DNA of 64,000 nt, taken from contig JALHNM010000006.1 in the NCBI GenBank assembly GCA_022843485.1, positions 1 through 64,000 on the forward strand. The letters run 5' to 3'. Under the pieces are notes generated by a model. The model was not told the DNA's origin and ran no database searches. It was given only the letters and a program-made list of their open reading frames with translations. Made by a program: the position numbers and the translations under genes. Of the stretch, positions 21,605 through 53,942 are shown piece after piece. Each line of letters starts with the position of its first letter. The first letter of the stretch is position 1. The stretch comes from Fimbriimonadaceae bacterium (GTDB lineage Bacteria; Armatimonadota; Fimbriimonadia; Fimbriimonadales; Fimbriimonadaceae).

Positions 21605-22093
21605 CTACCACACGTCTCGCTCGATCGCCTTCGACCCGGCGGACGACCATCGATAGTCCTGGGGGCGTTCGACGAGCCCGGCTCGGACGGGGTTCTGTTC
21701 AATGTAGGAGAGCTTCTCCGAGAACTCGTGCTCCGACCAGACGTTCCTGTCGTAGCCCCCGCCGGCCTGCCAGAACGCCCGAGGAGCGGCACCGCACCCG
21801 CGGAGGCGCGCGAGGGCCTTCGTCGCCGTCCGCGTCTTGAGGGCGAGCAGGATCCTCTGCGAGCTCGCGACGGAGTGGTCTGGTGCGAGCAAGAGGTGAA
21901 CGTGGTCTGGCATCAGCACCCATGCGAAGAGCCAGCAGCCCAACCGAGATCTCGTCTGGGCCAAGTGATCGACGACCATGTCCGCTGTCCACGGATCGGC
22001 CAGGAGCGGCAGCCGGCTGTCGCAGCCGAACGTCAAGAACCGAATGCCGTTGGGGTCTTCGAATCTGCGGTTGCCACTGGGGCTGAGTCTCAC
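21605..22093 (-). CDS. REP-associated tyrosine transposase (RAYT, IS200/Y1-type)
   Basis: 162 residues from GTG 22093. The HUH metal-binding motif is MPDHVHLLL near residue 61, and YIEQNPVRAGLVERPQDY near residue 130 is the RAYT/TnpA_REP signature that follows the catalytic Tyr region. Single-domain Y1 transposases of this kind are not flanked by ordinary IS ends; they are linked to REP repeats, which they nick at GTAG-stem-loop sites. Here at least five REP copies lie within 700 bases on both sides. The gene is intact, with no frameshift. Its start has no good Shine-Dalgarno. Confidence 0.92.
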   Translation of the reverse strand: MRLSPSGNRRFEDPNGIRFLTFGCDSRLPLLADPWTADMVVDHLAQTRSRLGCWLFAWVLMPDHVHLLLAPDHSVASSQRILLALKTRTATKALARLRGCGAAPRAFWQAGGGYDRNVWSEHEFSEKLSYIEQNPVRAGLVERPQDYRWSSAGSKAIERDVW

Positions 22094-36543: not shown

Positions 36544-38208
36544 ATGCTGCTCGAACTCACCGTCGAGAACGTCGCGATCATCGATCGGGCCGCGCTGTCC
36601 CTGGGCCCGGGGTTCACCGCCCTCACGGGCGAGACGGGGGCTGGGAAGTCGCTCCTCGTCGACGCGATCCAACTCGCTCTCGGCGGGCGGGCGGACTCAG
36701 ACCTCGTCCGGGCGGGGGCGGCGAAGGGCTCGGTGGCCCTCCTCGCCGACGTCTCGAGGTGCCCGGCGGTCCTCACACGGTGCGCCGAGCTCGGCGTCGA
36801 CGTCGAGGACGGACAACTCGCCGTCCAACGGGACGTCAGCGCTGAAGGCCGCTCGACCGTCCGGCTCAACGGGCGCCCGGCCGCCGTGGGGGTCCTGCGG
36901 GAGATCGGCGCTTTGCTCGTGGATCTCCACGGCCAGCACGACCACCAGGCCCTGCTCGTGCCCGAGCGCCAGGTCGAATTCCTCGACTCCTGGATCGGCG
37001 ACGAGGCTCGGCGGGCTCTGGCGGACGTGGCCGAGGCCTGGGCGGCCGCCGAGGCCGCACGCCGCCGCCTCGCCGCCTTGAGGGGATCTCGCCGTGAGCG
37101 AGAGCAGCGGGTCGATATGCTCCGGTTCCAGGTCGAGGACATCGAAACGGTTAACCCTTTGGTCGGCGAAACTGACGGACTGCTCGCCCAGATCGAACGG
37201 CTGAAGCACGCTGAACGACTCATCATGAGTTCGCAGGCGGCCCTCGGGCTTGTCTCCGATGGCGAAAGCTCCGTCACCGACCAACTCGGGGCGGCTGTCC
37301 GAGAACTCGAGACCGTCAGTTTGATCGACCAAACGGTTGAGGACATCCTCACGTCGCTGAGGGAGGCGCTCATCGCTGTGCAGGAGGGGGCGCGAGGCTT
37401 GCGGGCGTACCTCGAGGGCCTCGAGGCAGACCCGGAGGCCCTCGAGCGGGCGGCCCAACGACTCGACGCCCTCCGCCGACTCGCCCGGAAGTACGGGGAC
37501 ACTGACGAGGCCGTGCTCGAGTTCTTGGCCCGGGCGAAGGCCGACCTCGAAGCGCTCACCGGAGACGGCGAGGACGAAGAGGCCCTCGCCGCGCGGGTCG
37601 AAGAGGCCGAGGGTGTCCTCTCCGCCCGGGCCACTGCGCTGACCGACCTCCGAAGGGAGCGTGCAGGGGTCTTCGCCGGGTTGGTGCAAGCGGAGGCCCG
37701 TCAACTCGCCCTCGAGAAGGCCGTGTTCTCCGTCGAGATCGAGCCGAAGCCCGTGGGCGCCGACGGGGCCGACACCGTGGCCTTCATGTTCTCGGCGAAC
37801 CCAGGAGAACCCGCCAGGCCGCTCAGCAAGGTCGCGAGCGGGGGCGAGATCAGCCGCGTCATGCTCGCGATCAAGGTCGCCTCAGCGGGCCGGGCTGGGG
37901 TGCCCACCCTTGTGTTCGACGAGGTCGACTCTGGGCTCAGCGGCCGGGCCGCGGCCGTGACCGCCCGGAAGCTGGCCGAGCTCGCCCGGCACTACCAGGT
38001 CCTCGCGATCACCCACCTCCCCCAGATCGCGGGCCAGGCGGACGCCCACTTCCGCATCGAAAAGGCCGAGGCCGACGGGCGCACCCGGACCGACGTCCGC
38101 CTCCTCGACCCGGACGAGCGCCTCCAGGAGGTCGCACGACTCCTCGCGGGCGAGGAGGTCGGCGAGTCCGCCCTCGCCAACGCCCGCGAACTGCTCGCCC
38201 GGCCTTAG
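36544..38208 (+). CDS. recN: DNA repair protein RecN
   Basis: 554 residues from ATG 36544. SMC-like ATPase with Walker A FTALTGETGAGKSLLVDAI, the C-loop signature VASGGEISRVMLAIK and Walker B VPTLVFDEVDSGLSG, with a coiled coil (residues ~160-370) between. RecN gathers double-strand break ends for RecA repair. The length equals that of other RecN proteins. It converges on cysS with overlapping stops (TTAG). Confidence 0.95.
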   Translation: MLLELTVENVAIIDRAALSLGPGFTALTGETGAGKSLLVDAIQLALGGRADSDLVRAGAAKGSVALLADVSRCPAVLTRCAELGVDVEDGQLAVQRDVSAEGRSTVRLNGRPAAVGVLREIGALLVDLHGQHDHQALLVPERQVEFLDSWIGDEARRALADVAEAWAAAEAARRRLAALRGSRREREQRVDMLRFQVEDIETVNPLVGETDGLLAQIERLKHAERLIMSSQAALGLVSDGESSVTDQLGAAVRELETVSLIDQTVEDILTSLREALIAVQEGARGLRAYLEGLEADPEALERAAQRLDALRRLARKYGDTDEAVLEFLARAKADLEALTGDGEDEEALAARVEEAEGVLSARATALTDLRRERAGVFAGLVQAEARQLALEKAVFSVEIEPKPVGADGADTVAFMFSANPGEPARPLSKVASGGEISRVMLAIKVASAGRAGVPTLVFDEVDSGLSGRAAAVTARKLAELARHYQVLAITHLPQIAGQADAHFRIEKAEADGRTRTDVRLLDPDERLQEVARLLAGEEVGESALANARELLARP

Positions 38209-39731
38209 CCGCCGGGCCGGAGCGCCCAGGTCGTGCCCTCGGGGCTGTCCCGCAGTTCGACGCCCGCCTCGGCCAGCCGGGCCCGGATCGCGTCCGCCGC
38301 GGCATAGTCTTTGGCCCGCTTCGCCTCGTCCCGCAAGCCGACCCACGCGTCGACGGTCCGCCCGTCCACGGTCGGTGTCTCAGCCGCGGGGGGCGGCCCA
38401 GAGGGCTCGTGCTCGCTCCGAACGACTCCGAGGAGACCGTTGACCTGGTCGAGGTAGGTTGCGGCGGCCCGGGCTTGCGCCGGGGTCAGCGATGGCTCGC
38501 GGAGGATCGCCTTCGCCCCCTCGAGGGACTTCGCGATCGCGACCGACGTGTTCAGGTCGTTCGCCATCGCGTCGAGCGCCCCCTCGTAGAGGCGCTGGAG
38601 TTCGTCTCCGAGGGCCACCCGCTCGGTATCTTCGAAGGGGTTCGTGCCCGGCGAAACTGAGGGGGGGGTAGACCCGCCTGCCACCGCCACCCGCCGCTCG
38701 CACTCCCGGAACCGCTCCACGTGCCCCTGGGCGTCGCGAAGGAGTTGGAGCGTGAAGTTCATGGGCTTCCCGTACGGCACGCTCATGAGCGCGAACCGAA
38801 GTGCGAGCGGGTCGAACCCCTTCTCGAGCAGGTCGCGCACGGTGAAGAAGTTGCCCGCCCGCTTGGCCATCTTCTCCCCTTCGACTTGGAGGAACCGCAC
38901 GTGCATCCAGTGGTTGCTGAACGGCTTGCCGGTGAAGGCCTCGCTCTGCGCGATCTCGCACTCGTGGTGGGGAAAGGCATTGTCCTCGCCGCCGCTGTGC
39001 AGGTCGATCGTGTCGCCCAGATAGGCACGGGCCATCGCGCTGCACTCGATGTGCCACCCCGGGAAGCCCCACCCCCAAGGCGAGAACCACTGCATGAGGT
39101 GCTTGTCGTCCTTCTTCCAGAGCGCGAAGTCGGCCTGGCGGCGCTTGTTCTCGTCCAGCACGACGTCGCGCACGGCCTCCTGGAGCTTGTCGCGGGTGTT
39201 CCCGCTCAGCTTGCCGTAGTCCGGCTGGCTCTCGACGTCGAAGTAGACGCCGGTTGGGGTCTCATAGGCGTTGCCCTTTTCGACGAGGGCCTGGGCCATC
39301 AGGATCTGCTCGCGCACGTGCTGGGTGGCCCGTGGGCGGACCTCGGGCTCGGTCAGGTTCAGCCGTTGCCAGTCCTCGAGGTAGGCCTGGGTGTAGTACT
39401 CCGCAAGGTCCCAGACGTTAGCGAACTGCTCGCCCTCTTTGCTGTGGAGGGCCTTTTCCATCCGGTCCTCCCCGCCCGCGTCGGCGACGTCGTCTTGGGT
39501 GAGGTGGCCGACGTCCGTGATGTTGCTCACCCAGGTCACGCGCCACCCGAGGGCCCGGGCCGTCCGCACCACCAGGTCCGCCGCGAGGAACGATCGGAAG
39601 TTGCCGATGTGGGCGTAGCTATACACCGTCGGCCCGCAGGTGTAGAACCGTAAGTGGCCGGGTTCGGCGGTCTCGATCGGCTTGACTTGCCGACTCAGCG
39701 TGTCGTAGAGCTTGAACTCGCTAGGGGGCAT
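38205..39731 (-). CDS. cysS: Cysteinyl-tRNA synthetase
   Basis: 508 residues from ATG 39731. Class I motifs: YTCGPTVYSYAHIGNFR (HIGH equivalent HIGN, zinc Cys), WHIECSAMA, FPHHECEIAQSEA, and EGEKMAKRAGNF in place of KMSKS. The DALR and C-terminal helical parts are complete. It makes Cys-tRNA from cysteine and ATP. A PPSVSPG peptide (encoded at 38646-38668) sits in a loop just after the KMSKS-containing domain and matches an inserted palindrome seen also in the GT2 gene. It is divergent from rnpB. Confidence 0.95.
   Translation of the reverse strand: MPPSEFKLYDTLSRQVKPIETAEPGHLRFYTCGPTVYSYAHIGNFRSFLAADLVVRTARALGWRVTWVSNITDVGHLTQDDVADAGGEDRMEKALHSKEGEQFANVWDLAEYYTQAYLEDWQRLNLTEPEVRPRATQHVREQILMAQALVEKGNAYETPTGVYFDVESQPDYGKLSGNTRDKLQEAVRDVVLDENKRRQADFALWKKDDKHLMQWFSPWGWGFPGWHIECSAMARAYLGDTIDLHSGGEDNAFPHHECEIAQSEAFTGKPFSNHWMHVRFLQVEGEKMAKRAGNFFTVRDLLEKGFDPLALRFALMSVPYGKPMNFTLQLLRDAQGHVERFRECERRVAVAGGSTPPSVSPGTNPFEDTERVALGDELQRLYEGALDAMANDLNTSVAIAKSLEGAKAILREPSLTPAQARAAATYLDQVNGLLGVVRSEHEPSGPPPAAETPTVDGRTVDAWVGLRDEAKRAKDYAAADAIRARLAEAGVELRDSPEGTTWALRPGG
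38646..38668 (-). repeat. C-rich palindrome arm inside cysS (family D)
   Basis: GCCCGGCGAAACTGA followed by eight G; on the coding strand it reads CCCCCCCCTCAGTTTCGCC. The same arm occurs twice, in inverted orientation, in the GT2 gene at 53104-53157. It is translated as PPSVSPG in an apparent surface loop between the catalytic and DALR domains of CysS. Confidence 0.6.
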
Positions 39732-52946: not shown

Positions 52947-53942
52947 GTGCCCCGCGTCTCGATCCTCCTCACCTGCTACAACCACCTGGCCTACCTCCCG
53001 GCTTGCCTCGAATCTGTCTGGGCCCAGACGTTCGACGACTTCGAGGTGATCGTCCTCGACGACGGCTCGACCGACGGCACCCGCGAGTGGCTCACGTCCG
53101 GAGCCCCCCCCTCGGTTTTGCCCGGATGCATTGTGCCGGGCGAAACTGAGGGGGGGGTTGGGGGGGGAGACTCCGGGCGCCCCCGGCCCCCGCTCCGGAT
53201 CGTGTTCAACGAACGCAACCTCGGCACCTACGGGACCCTCAACGTCGGCCTGGGCCTGGCCACGGGCGAGTTCGTGGCCGTGCTGAACGACGACGACCTC
53301 TGGGCCCCGACCAAGCTCGAACGGGAGATCGCGATGCTCGACGCCCACCCCGAAGTCGGCCTCGTCCACACGGACGGGCACTTCATCGACGGCGACGGCC
53401 GGAGGACGGAGGGCAACCCGCTCGGGTTCGCTTTCCCCCGCACCGAGACCGGCGACGTGCTGCTCGCCCTCATCGGCGCGAACAAGATCATCGCGAGCGC
53501 CGTACTCGTCCGCCGCCAGTGCTTCGACGAGGTCGGGGTCTTCGACGAGGCGTACTTCGGCTCCGGCGACTGGCAGATGTGGCTCCGGGTTGCCGAGCGG
53601 TGGGCGGTCGGCTACGTGGACGAACCGCTGACCTTCTACCGCGTCCACGGCGCCAACGCCTCGCACAAGCTCGAACGCATCTGGCGCGATGACGAGCGGC
53701 TCAGGGAGTGGCTCGTGGAGCGCTCGCCCTCCTACCGCGGCCGCTACCCGGACGCCGAGCTCGACGCCGCCCTCGCCCACAACTGGGCCTGCCTCGGCAC
53801 CGTGCGCACCCTGAACGGCGACCCCGCCGCCGGTCGCCGGGCCTACCGGGAGTCGCTACGGCTCGCGCCGGGGCGCTGGCAGAGCCGACTCCGGATGGCC
53901 GCGACCTACCTACCGGCGCCGCTTTTCCGGCGGCTTCTGTGA
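52947..53942 (+). CDS. Family 2 glycosyltransferase
   Basis: 331 residues from GTG 52947. GT2 motifs: VSILLTCYNHLAYLPACL, VIVLDDGSTDGTREWL (DxD-like acidic pair), AVLNDDDLWAPTKLER (DDD metal site) and GSGDWQMWLRVAERWAVGY. A stretch encoded at about 53098-53173, APPSVLPGCIVPGETEGGVG, is not seen in GT2 proteins and is exactly a C-rich palindrome (family D), placed in the loop after strand 2. It transfers a sugar from a nucleotide sugar to an unknown surface acceptor. Its 3' end overlaps the lysozyme-like gene by 33 bases on the other strand. Confidence 0.9.
   Translation: MPRVSILLTCYNHLAYLPACLESVWAQTFDDFEVIVLDDGSTDGTREWLTSGAPPSVLPGCIVPGETEGGVGGGDSGRPRPPLRIVFNERNLGTYGTLNVGLGLATGEFVAVLNDDDLWAPTKLEREIAMLDAHPEVGLVHTDGHFIDGDGRRTEGNPLGFAFPRTETGDVLLALIGANKIIASAVLVRRQCFDEVGVFDEAYFGSGDWQMWLRVAERWAVGYVDEPLTFYRVHGANASHKLERIWRDDERLREWLVERSPSYRGRYPDAELDAALAHNWACLGTVRTLNGDPAAGRRAYRESLRLAPGRWQSRLRMAATYLPAPLFRRLL
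53104..53157 (+). repeat. C-rich palindrome inside the GT2 gene (family D), full copy
   Basis: Eight C then TCGGTTTTGCCCGG (53104-53125), loop ATGCATTGTG (53126-53135) and CCGGGCGAAACTGA then eight G (53136-53157): 22-bp arms with two mismatches that would still pair as G-U in RNA. One arm, without its partner, occurs in cysS at 38646-38668. In both genes the arm is translated as PPSV-x-PG. Confidence 0.8.

Follow-up and report, generated by a model that had tools for sequence, protein, structure and literature searches.

An apparently new family of RPE-like protein-coding palindromic elements in Fimbriimonadaceae (Armatimonadota)

Introduction

MITEs such as Correia/NEMIS, ERIC and RUP are short, non-autonomous, hairpin-forming repeats that sometimes give rise to in-frame gene fusions. 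A rare means for mobile DNA to extend working enzymes by a stretch of peptide is the protein-coding palindrome. In the account given in PMC2229807 (also reviewed in PMC10969869), the Rickettsia palindromic elements (RPEs) of Ogata and Claverie measure 105–146 bp, and the RPE insert in R. conorii gmk is translated while the enzyme remains active; the same source cites protein-coding palindromic repeats of Wolbachia (Ogata 2005). In-frame REPs inside genes have already been reported in several phyla, with GTAG- and CGTC-tagged REPs lying inside ORFs of Opitutus terrae, Thauera and R. conorii; stems of the GTAG REP superfamily span 6–13 bp, and RPE-4 and RPE-6 terminate in CGTC (PMC3733652). Armatimonadota are not mentioned in that paper, and we found no earlier report of such elements in this phylum in a search of mainly open-access literature.

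We analyzed a stretch of 64,000 nucleotides from a Fimbriimonadaceae genome, referred to below as the window. A first-pass annotation of this DNA had likened a C-rich palindrome, located within a glycosyltransferase gene and cysS, to the RPEs and held that a wider family in this genome would be a new intragenic selfish element. Our results make it quite probable that the palindrome belongs to a family of short, non-autonomous mobile elements of the REP/RPE type, carried as tolerated passengers in protein loops and not as adaptive domains.

Results

Relatives of the palindrome were searched for with a covariance model (Infernal) built from six copies. The R strand is defined as the + strand at position 53104, and the T strand as its complement. 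In the window, model R1 detected a full element at 53098–53171 (+, R strand; 99.9 bits, E = 1.1e-18) inside a glycosyltransferase family 2 (GT2) gene (52947–53942, +), the Pfam domain of which is interrupted at the insert. The palindrome described previously is present at 53104–53157 and consists of a 5' arm (53104–53125) and a 3' arm (53136–53157) of 22 nt each, whose pairing is backed by covariation across copies, separated by the 10-nt loop ATGCATTGTG (53126–53135; family consensus ATGGTTCGTG). The element is longer than this palindrome, to which the earlier description had confined it, and runs on the + strand from a head, CCGGAG (53098–53103), to a tail, TTGGGGGGGGAGAC (53158–53171; family form TTGGGGGtGGAGA followed by C, T or A). 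The exact left border of the head is uncertain, and the neighboring T at 53097 and TCCGG at 53172–53176 may also be part of the element. As DNA, the arms are 91% complementary, with two mismatches that are both G.U on the + strand, so that + strand RNA pairs at 22 of 22 positions; its folding energy is −60 kcal/mol (z = −7.2 vs shuffles). The arm pattern has five matches in the window at up to three mismatches, three of them perfect, compared with 0.63 expected, and 13 matches in the whole genome at up to two mismatches, compared with 0 for a reversed control. No Rfam family reached its gathering threshold at the window copy, and weak matches to microRNA precursors, far under the cut-offs, were dismissed as reflecting a generic hairpin. 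GT2 homologues in genomes G001, G028 and G046 lack the insert by orthologue comparison. A single-sequence AlphaFold model of GT2 (pLDDT 41) was discarded as unusable; alignment suggests that the insert lies in a loop, as had been proposed.

A decayed copy was found at 38609–38673 (+; model R1, 29.4 bits, E = 4.5e-4), conserved at ~38639–38673, within cysS, the cysteinyl-tRNA synthetase gene (38205–39731, −; Pfam tRNA-synt_1e; probable start at 39731). This copy had been read as a single arm. An arm does lie at 38647–38665, but it is not an isolated one: the sister species G001 carries a full-length, doubled element at the same site (L045), which is worn in the window genome, explaining the earlier reading. 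Both inserts keep the frame of their host gene, Pfam supports the identity of both genes, and the encoded peptides conform to the predicted PPSVxPG, as PPSVLPG in GT2 and PPSVSPG in CysS. The contention that this peptide is foreign to both proteins is borne out by orthologues from other genera, which do not have it. Among 76 CysS homologues covering the site, the ~40 alignments displayed contained no PPSVxPG and showed a variable linker at the position of the insert. In an AlphaFold model of CysS based on 40 sequences (mean pLDDT 88.8), the insert, at approximately residues 351–372, is a coil (pLDDT 60–65) between helices 328–350 and 373–390, which places it in a loop. By its CysS relatives the organism belongs to Armatimonadota, close to Fimbriimonadaceae; the closest named record, from the MAG Fimbriimonadaceae ACE_ARM1, has 76% identity. 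The cysS spans obtained by tblastn in ACE_ARM1 (L248) and CRAIB_MAG79 (L251) extend ~500–700 bp beyond the query, with extra upstream matched stretches.

Two findings had been named as speaking against a mobile element, an absence of further copies and the presence of the same peptide in close homologues from other genera; we looked for both, and found the anticipated wider family together with orthologues that lack the peptide. The window genome (G000, 2.96 Mb) contains ~17 copies, most in coding genes, and G001, a single contig and the only other genome of the genus, contains ~23. The four genomes of genus g11 (G033–G036) have 4–18 copies each, G063 has 48, and G008, a single contig of 5,231,762 bases, has 43. 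In the family survey, 12 of 85 genomes had a match at E = 1e-5 or better and 73 had none; four other family genomes had one match each. Since only top candidates were scored, these family-wide copy numbers are lower bounds. The 251 genomes sampled from the phylum yielded no match outside the family that reached 1e-8. Further copies encode PPSVSEG, PPSVLGG or PSSFSP. The suggested family marker PPSV[SL]PG thus fits GT2 and CysS but represents one sub-variant, and counting by PPSVxPG alone underestimates the family.

Codon-usage classification assigned 12 of 17 copies in G000 and 10 of 24 in G001 to coding sequence, as well as 3 of 6 in G033, 3 of 4 in G034, 3 of 14 in G035, 3 of 21 in G063 and 1 of 16 in G008, with many intergenic copies in the last two genomes. 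The G000 count takes in L033, a copy of a shorter related palindrome (CCCCACCCCCAACCCCCTCCCC..., L033:1501–1548, G000 C2:2050) that is translated as NPTPNPLPPERGRG inside a gene which in our reading is Cas4-like, and which suggests a broader class of C-rich coding palindromes. The hosts confirmed by Pfam, many of them essential enzymes, are GT2, NadA, an amidohydrolase (NagA-like), ArgS, IspG (GcpE), AhcY, an MqnC-like radical SAM protein, DXS, aconitase, GluRS/GlnRS, LeuRS (LeuS), a class II synthetase of the D/K/N (Asp/Lys/Asn) type, class II ribonucleotide reductase, GlyRS alpha (GlyQ), a MurC-Ddl-like fusion, UvrA, an S9 peptidase, MetRS (MetG), CysRS (CysS) and an eIF2B-like protein. The peptide is absent from orthologues of GT2, NagA, the S9 peptidase and AhcY; in AhcY the insert seemingly replaces ~7 native codons instead of merely adding to them. 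LeuS of G001 has five insertion sites, and the inserts are absent in G000, G064, G028 and G037. UvrA, CysS and IspG carry the insert at an identical site in both species of the window genus, whereas the NadA insert, complete in G000, survives in G001 as no more than a short remnant. Measured against the divergence of the two species, then, insertions are old; they also form dimers and degrade where they stand.

Several copies and a second palindrome deserve separate mention. An element lies ~35 bp from an SAH riboswitch aptamer in both species (L027:1501–1572, G000 C13:39700; L140:1519–1590 in G001), and the G000 copy, located between the aptamer and the ahcY start, might be part of the expression platform. 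At L017:1501–1573 (G000 C1:729882), the element ends in GGAGAC with an ATG directly after it, and this copy could provide a ribosome-binding site for the gene that follows. A second palindrome of 38 bp, CCGGGYTGAGCGGGCACGATCCATCCCGCTCAACCCGG, has nearly the same loop and occurs in a dozen or so copies in G000, some of them clustered (L041–L043 and other places in C2, C5, C7, C8 and C16).

The coding copies strongly prefer a single frame per orientation, used by 15 of 16 R-oriented and 18 of 22 T-oriented copies (38 scored). In the favored frames the 5' arm is translated as PPSV or PSSF; the codon phases of the two orientations differ by one base, and the 5' arm is read alike in both. The predicted peptides are ~20–25 residues long, stop-free, neutral to acidic, mostly hydrophilic and rich in P, S, T, G and E. 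Stop codons alone fail to explain the frame bias, because most of the other frames are also open, and selection among insertions for tolerable peptides would be its simplest account.

On the R strand, the family follows the order (T)CCGGAG head, 5' arm, loop, 3' arm and TTGGGGGtGGAGA with a final C, T or A, often followed by TCCGG. Directly before the stem, 92 of 95 copies have AG, 53 have GGAG and 6 have GTAG. Element size ranges from 57 to 75 bp across subfamilies: ~74–75 and 71–72 nt in the window genus, ~71 nt in g11, ~59–62 nt with a short loop in G063 and ~57–58 nt in G008. The longest form has the 10-nt loop ATGGTTCGTG, and the stem comprises 22 bp in the 74-nt alignment (A4) and 14+4 in the 71-nt alignment (A5). 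CCGG or TCCGG is found near both ends of many copies; among the orthologous loci compared, no closely related, clean empty site displayed a target duplication. The same borders and loop recur in unrelated genes, and copies of 74 or 71 nt align without gaps.

Covariation was counted on the two alignments that need no gaps, a 74-nt set (14 copies, window genus) and a 71-nt set (g11). In the former, 92.9% of cells were paired vs 82.4% after shuffling, 28 cells were double-changed vs 8.9, and shifting the partner by one base lowered pairing to 64%; in the latter, 98.3% were paired vs 91.3%, and 15 were double-changed vs 4.3. The inner stem is the most variable region, with pairing nonetheless kept. 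Mismatch cells on the R strand were of the G.U type in 121 cases vs 22 of the A.C type, and the R strand gave the more stable fold in 96 of 102 copies; because the copies are akin to one another, the P values attached to these counts are not independent tests, but every genome shows the same direction. The covariation of the arms, together with wobble pairs favoring one strand, indicates that a single-stranded hairpin has been maintained.

A covarying stem with an R-strand wobble preference, and one copy between an SAH riboswitch and ahcY in G000 and another beside an SAH riboswitch in G001, would also fit an element kept for its RNA or DNA structure, as an mRNA hairpin, translational pause or binding site, with an incidental coding role. 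We consider this explanation unlikely. Of the coding copies, 16 are R-oriented and 22 T-oriented, which makes the structured strand antisense just as often as sense; moreover, no Rfam family reaches threshold at the window copy, the host genes are not related to one another, and sister genomes have lost copies or hold them in decayed form.

Aminoacyl-tRNA synthetases account for 7 of ~22 host gene types, a share apparently far above that in the genome, although this excess was noticed post hoc. Together with the five sites in G001 LeuS and the open, mostly hydrophilic peptides of the favored frames, it could be taken to mean that the inserts are adaptive and serve as a disordered linker that enzymes, and synthetases especially, have recruited time and again. 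We regard this as very unlikely, given that the peptides decay freely between the sister species in NadA, UvrA and CysS and that many G063 and G008 copies are intergenic. Finally, the fragmented state of several assemblies and the C-richness of the sequence could point to an error of assembly or gene calling, or to C-rich loops that expanded independently as low-complexity sequence. Such an origin is scarcely credible and is refuted by the shared gapless anatomy (common borders, loop and 74- or 71-nt alignments across unrelated genes), along with the paired covariation, the copies in the single-contig genomes G001 and G008 and the identical sites common to two species.

The GGAG head led us to consider a linked RAYT as the mobilizer. 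Y1_Tnp genes were found in all element-rich genomes. Of 46 Y1_Tnp loci, matches to the element lay near only two, L119 (~0.8 kb away) and L123 (short variants), with no clear flanking pair; the RAYTs examined are flanked by repeats other than the element. Mobilization by a linked RAYT was rejected because the element does not flank Y1_Tnp genes in G000, G001, G033–G036, G005, G008 or G063. An autonomous parent transposon was likewise rejected: in six genomes, almost every left end has its right partner no more than ~75 bp away, with no transposase between split ends and no long version. Thus, no mobilizing enzyme linked to the element was found in these genomes. The window itself contains a RAYT-like Y1 transposase gene (21695–22021, −; 171-aa frame) with palindromes of its own on its flanks, which are unrelated to the element and include GTAGGGTGGCCCG-type ends.

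Discussion

The interpretation offered by the first-pass annotation, a mobile palindrome tolerated within coding genes, holds, and a mechanism of spread can be proposed by analogy. Every unit consists of a strong hairpin preceded by a GGAG-like head on the R strand. Its head, its strand asymmetry and its similarity to REPs lead us to infer that it may move as a single-stranded R-strand hairpin, possibly via a Y1/RAYT-type transposase acting in trans, and that it probably inserts both between and inside genes. Copies retained in genes keep the frame, nearly always the one per orientation that yields the stop-free peptide described above; as in the CysS model, they presumably lie in loops or linkers elsewhere too. 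They outlast speciation, form dimers and decay slowly. Counting against the proposal, no mobilizing enzyme was found linked to the element, and many copies are old; present-day movement would be hypothetical. A bolder reading, which we find doubtful, is that of a mobile single-strand hairpin with no transposase dedicated to it, which invades genes of essential enzymes again and again, most of all those of aminoacyl-tRNA synthetases, and drives loop evolution there, its inner stem being rewritten in each copy by arm-to-arm copying with pairing always restored.

With several copy-rich genomes, and with two species of one genus between which insertions are variously shared, lost or decayed, this Armatimonadota family provides a natural series for the study of how such inserts arise, become tolerated and fade.

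Like MITEs, the element is short, hairpin-forming, non-autonomous and found in frame in genes; unlike them, it has no ends matching an autonomous transposon in the six genomes searched. At the orthologous loci compared, no target-site duplication was demonstrated. With the GTAG and CGTC REPs it shares a hairpin that leaves four nucleotides unpaired at one end, stem changes that are matched on the opposite arm, dimer formation and insertion within uvrA and tRNA synthetase genes, whereas its head is GGAG or NNAG and its loop is 10 nt in the window genus. It further departs from the GTAG superfamily in that GTAG occurs in only 6 of 95 copies, the stem reaches 22 bp vs 6–13, and no RAYT gene is flanked by the element (46 Y1_Tnp loci), and from the CGTC superfamily in lacking the terminal CGTC tag. 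By their defining tags and stem lengths, the element is outside both superfamilies. The Wolbachia repeats are likewise protein-coding palindromes, of another lineage. The likeness to RPEs lies in palindromic repeats that occupy intergenic positions as well as in-frame sites within numerous conserved genes of unrelated function, translation being predicted here; going by published descriptions, the element differs from RPEs in its length of 57–75 bp, GC-richness, GGAG head and phylum, and its consensus lacks the terminal CGTC of RPE-4 and RPE-6. It is a dispersed palindromic hairpin repeat, and sequence comparison places it in frame in several unrelated conserved genes whose orthologues lack it, as in RPE-like protein-coding palindromes. 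The proposed RPE-like behavior therefore stands, any homology to RPE being conjectural; the kind of element itself was already known (PMC3733652), and what we describe appears to be a new family of this known but uncommon kind.
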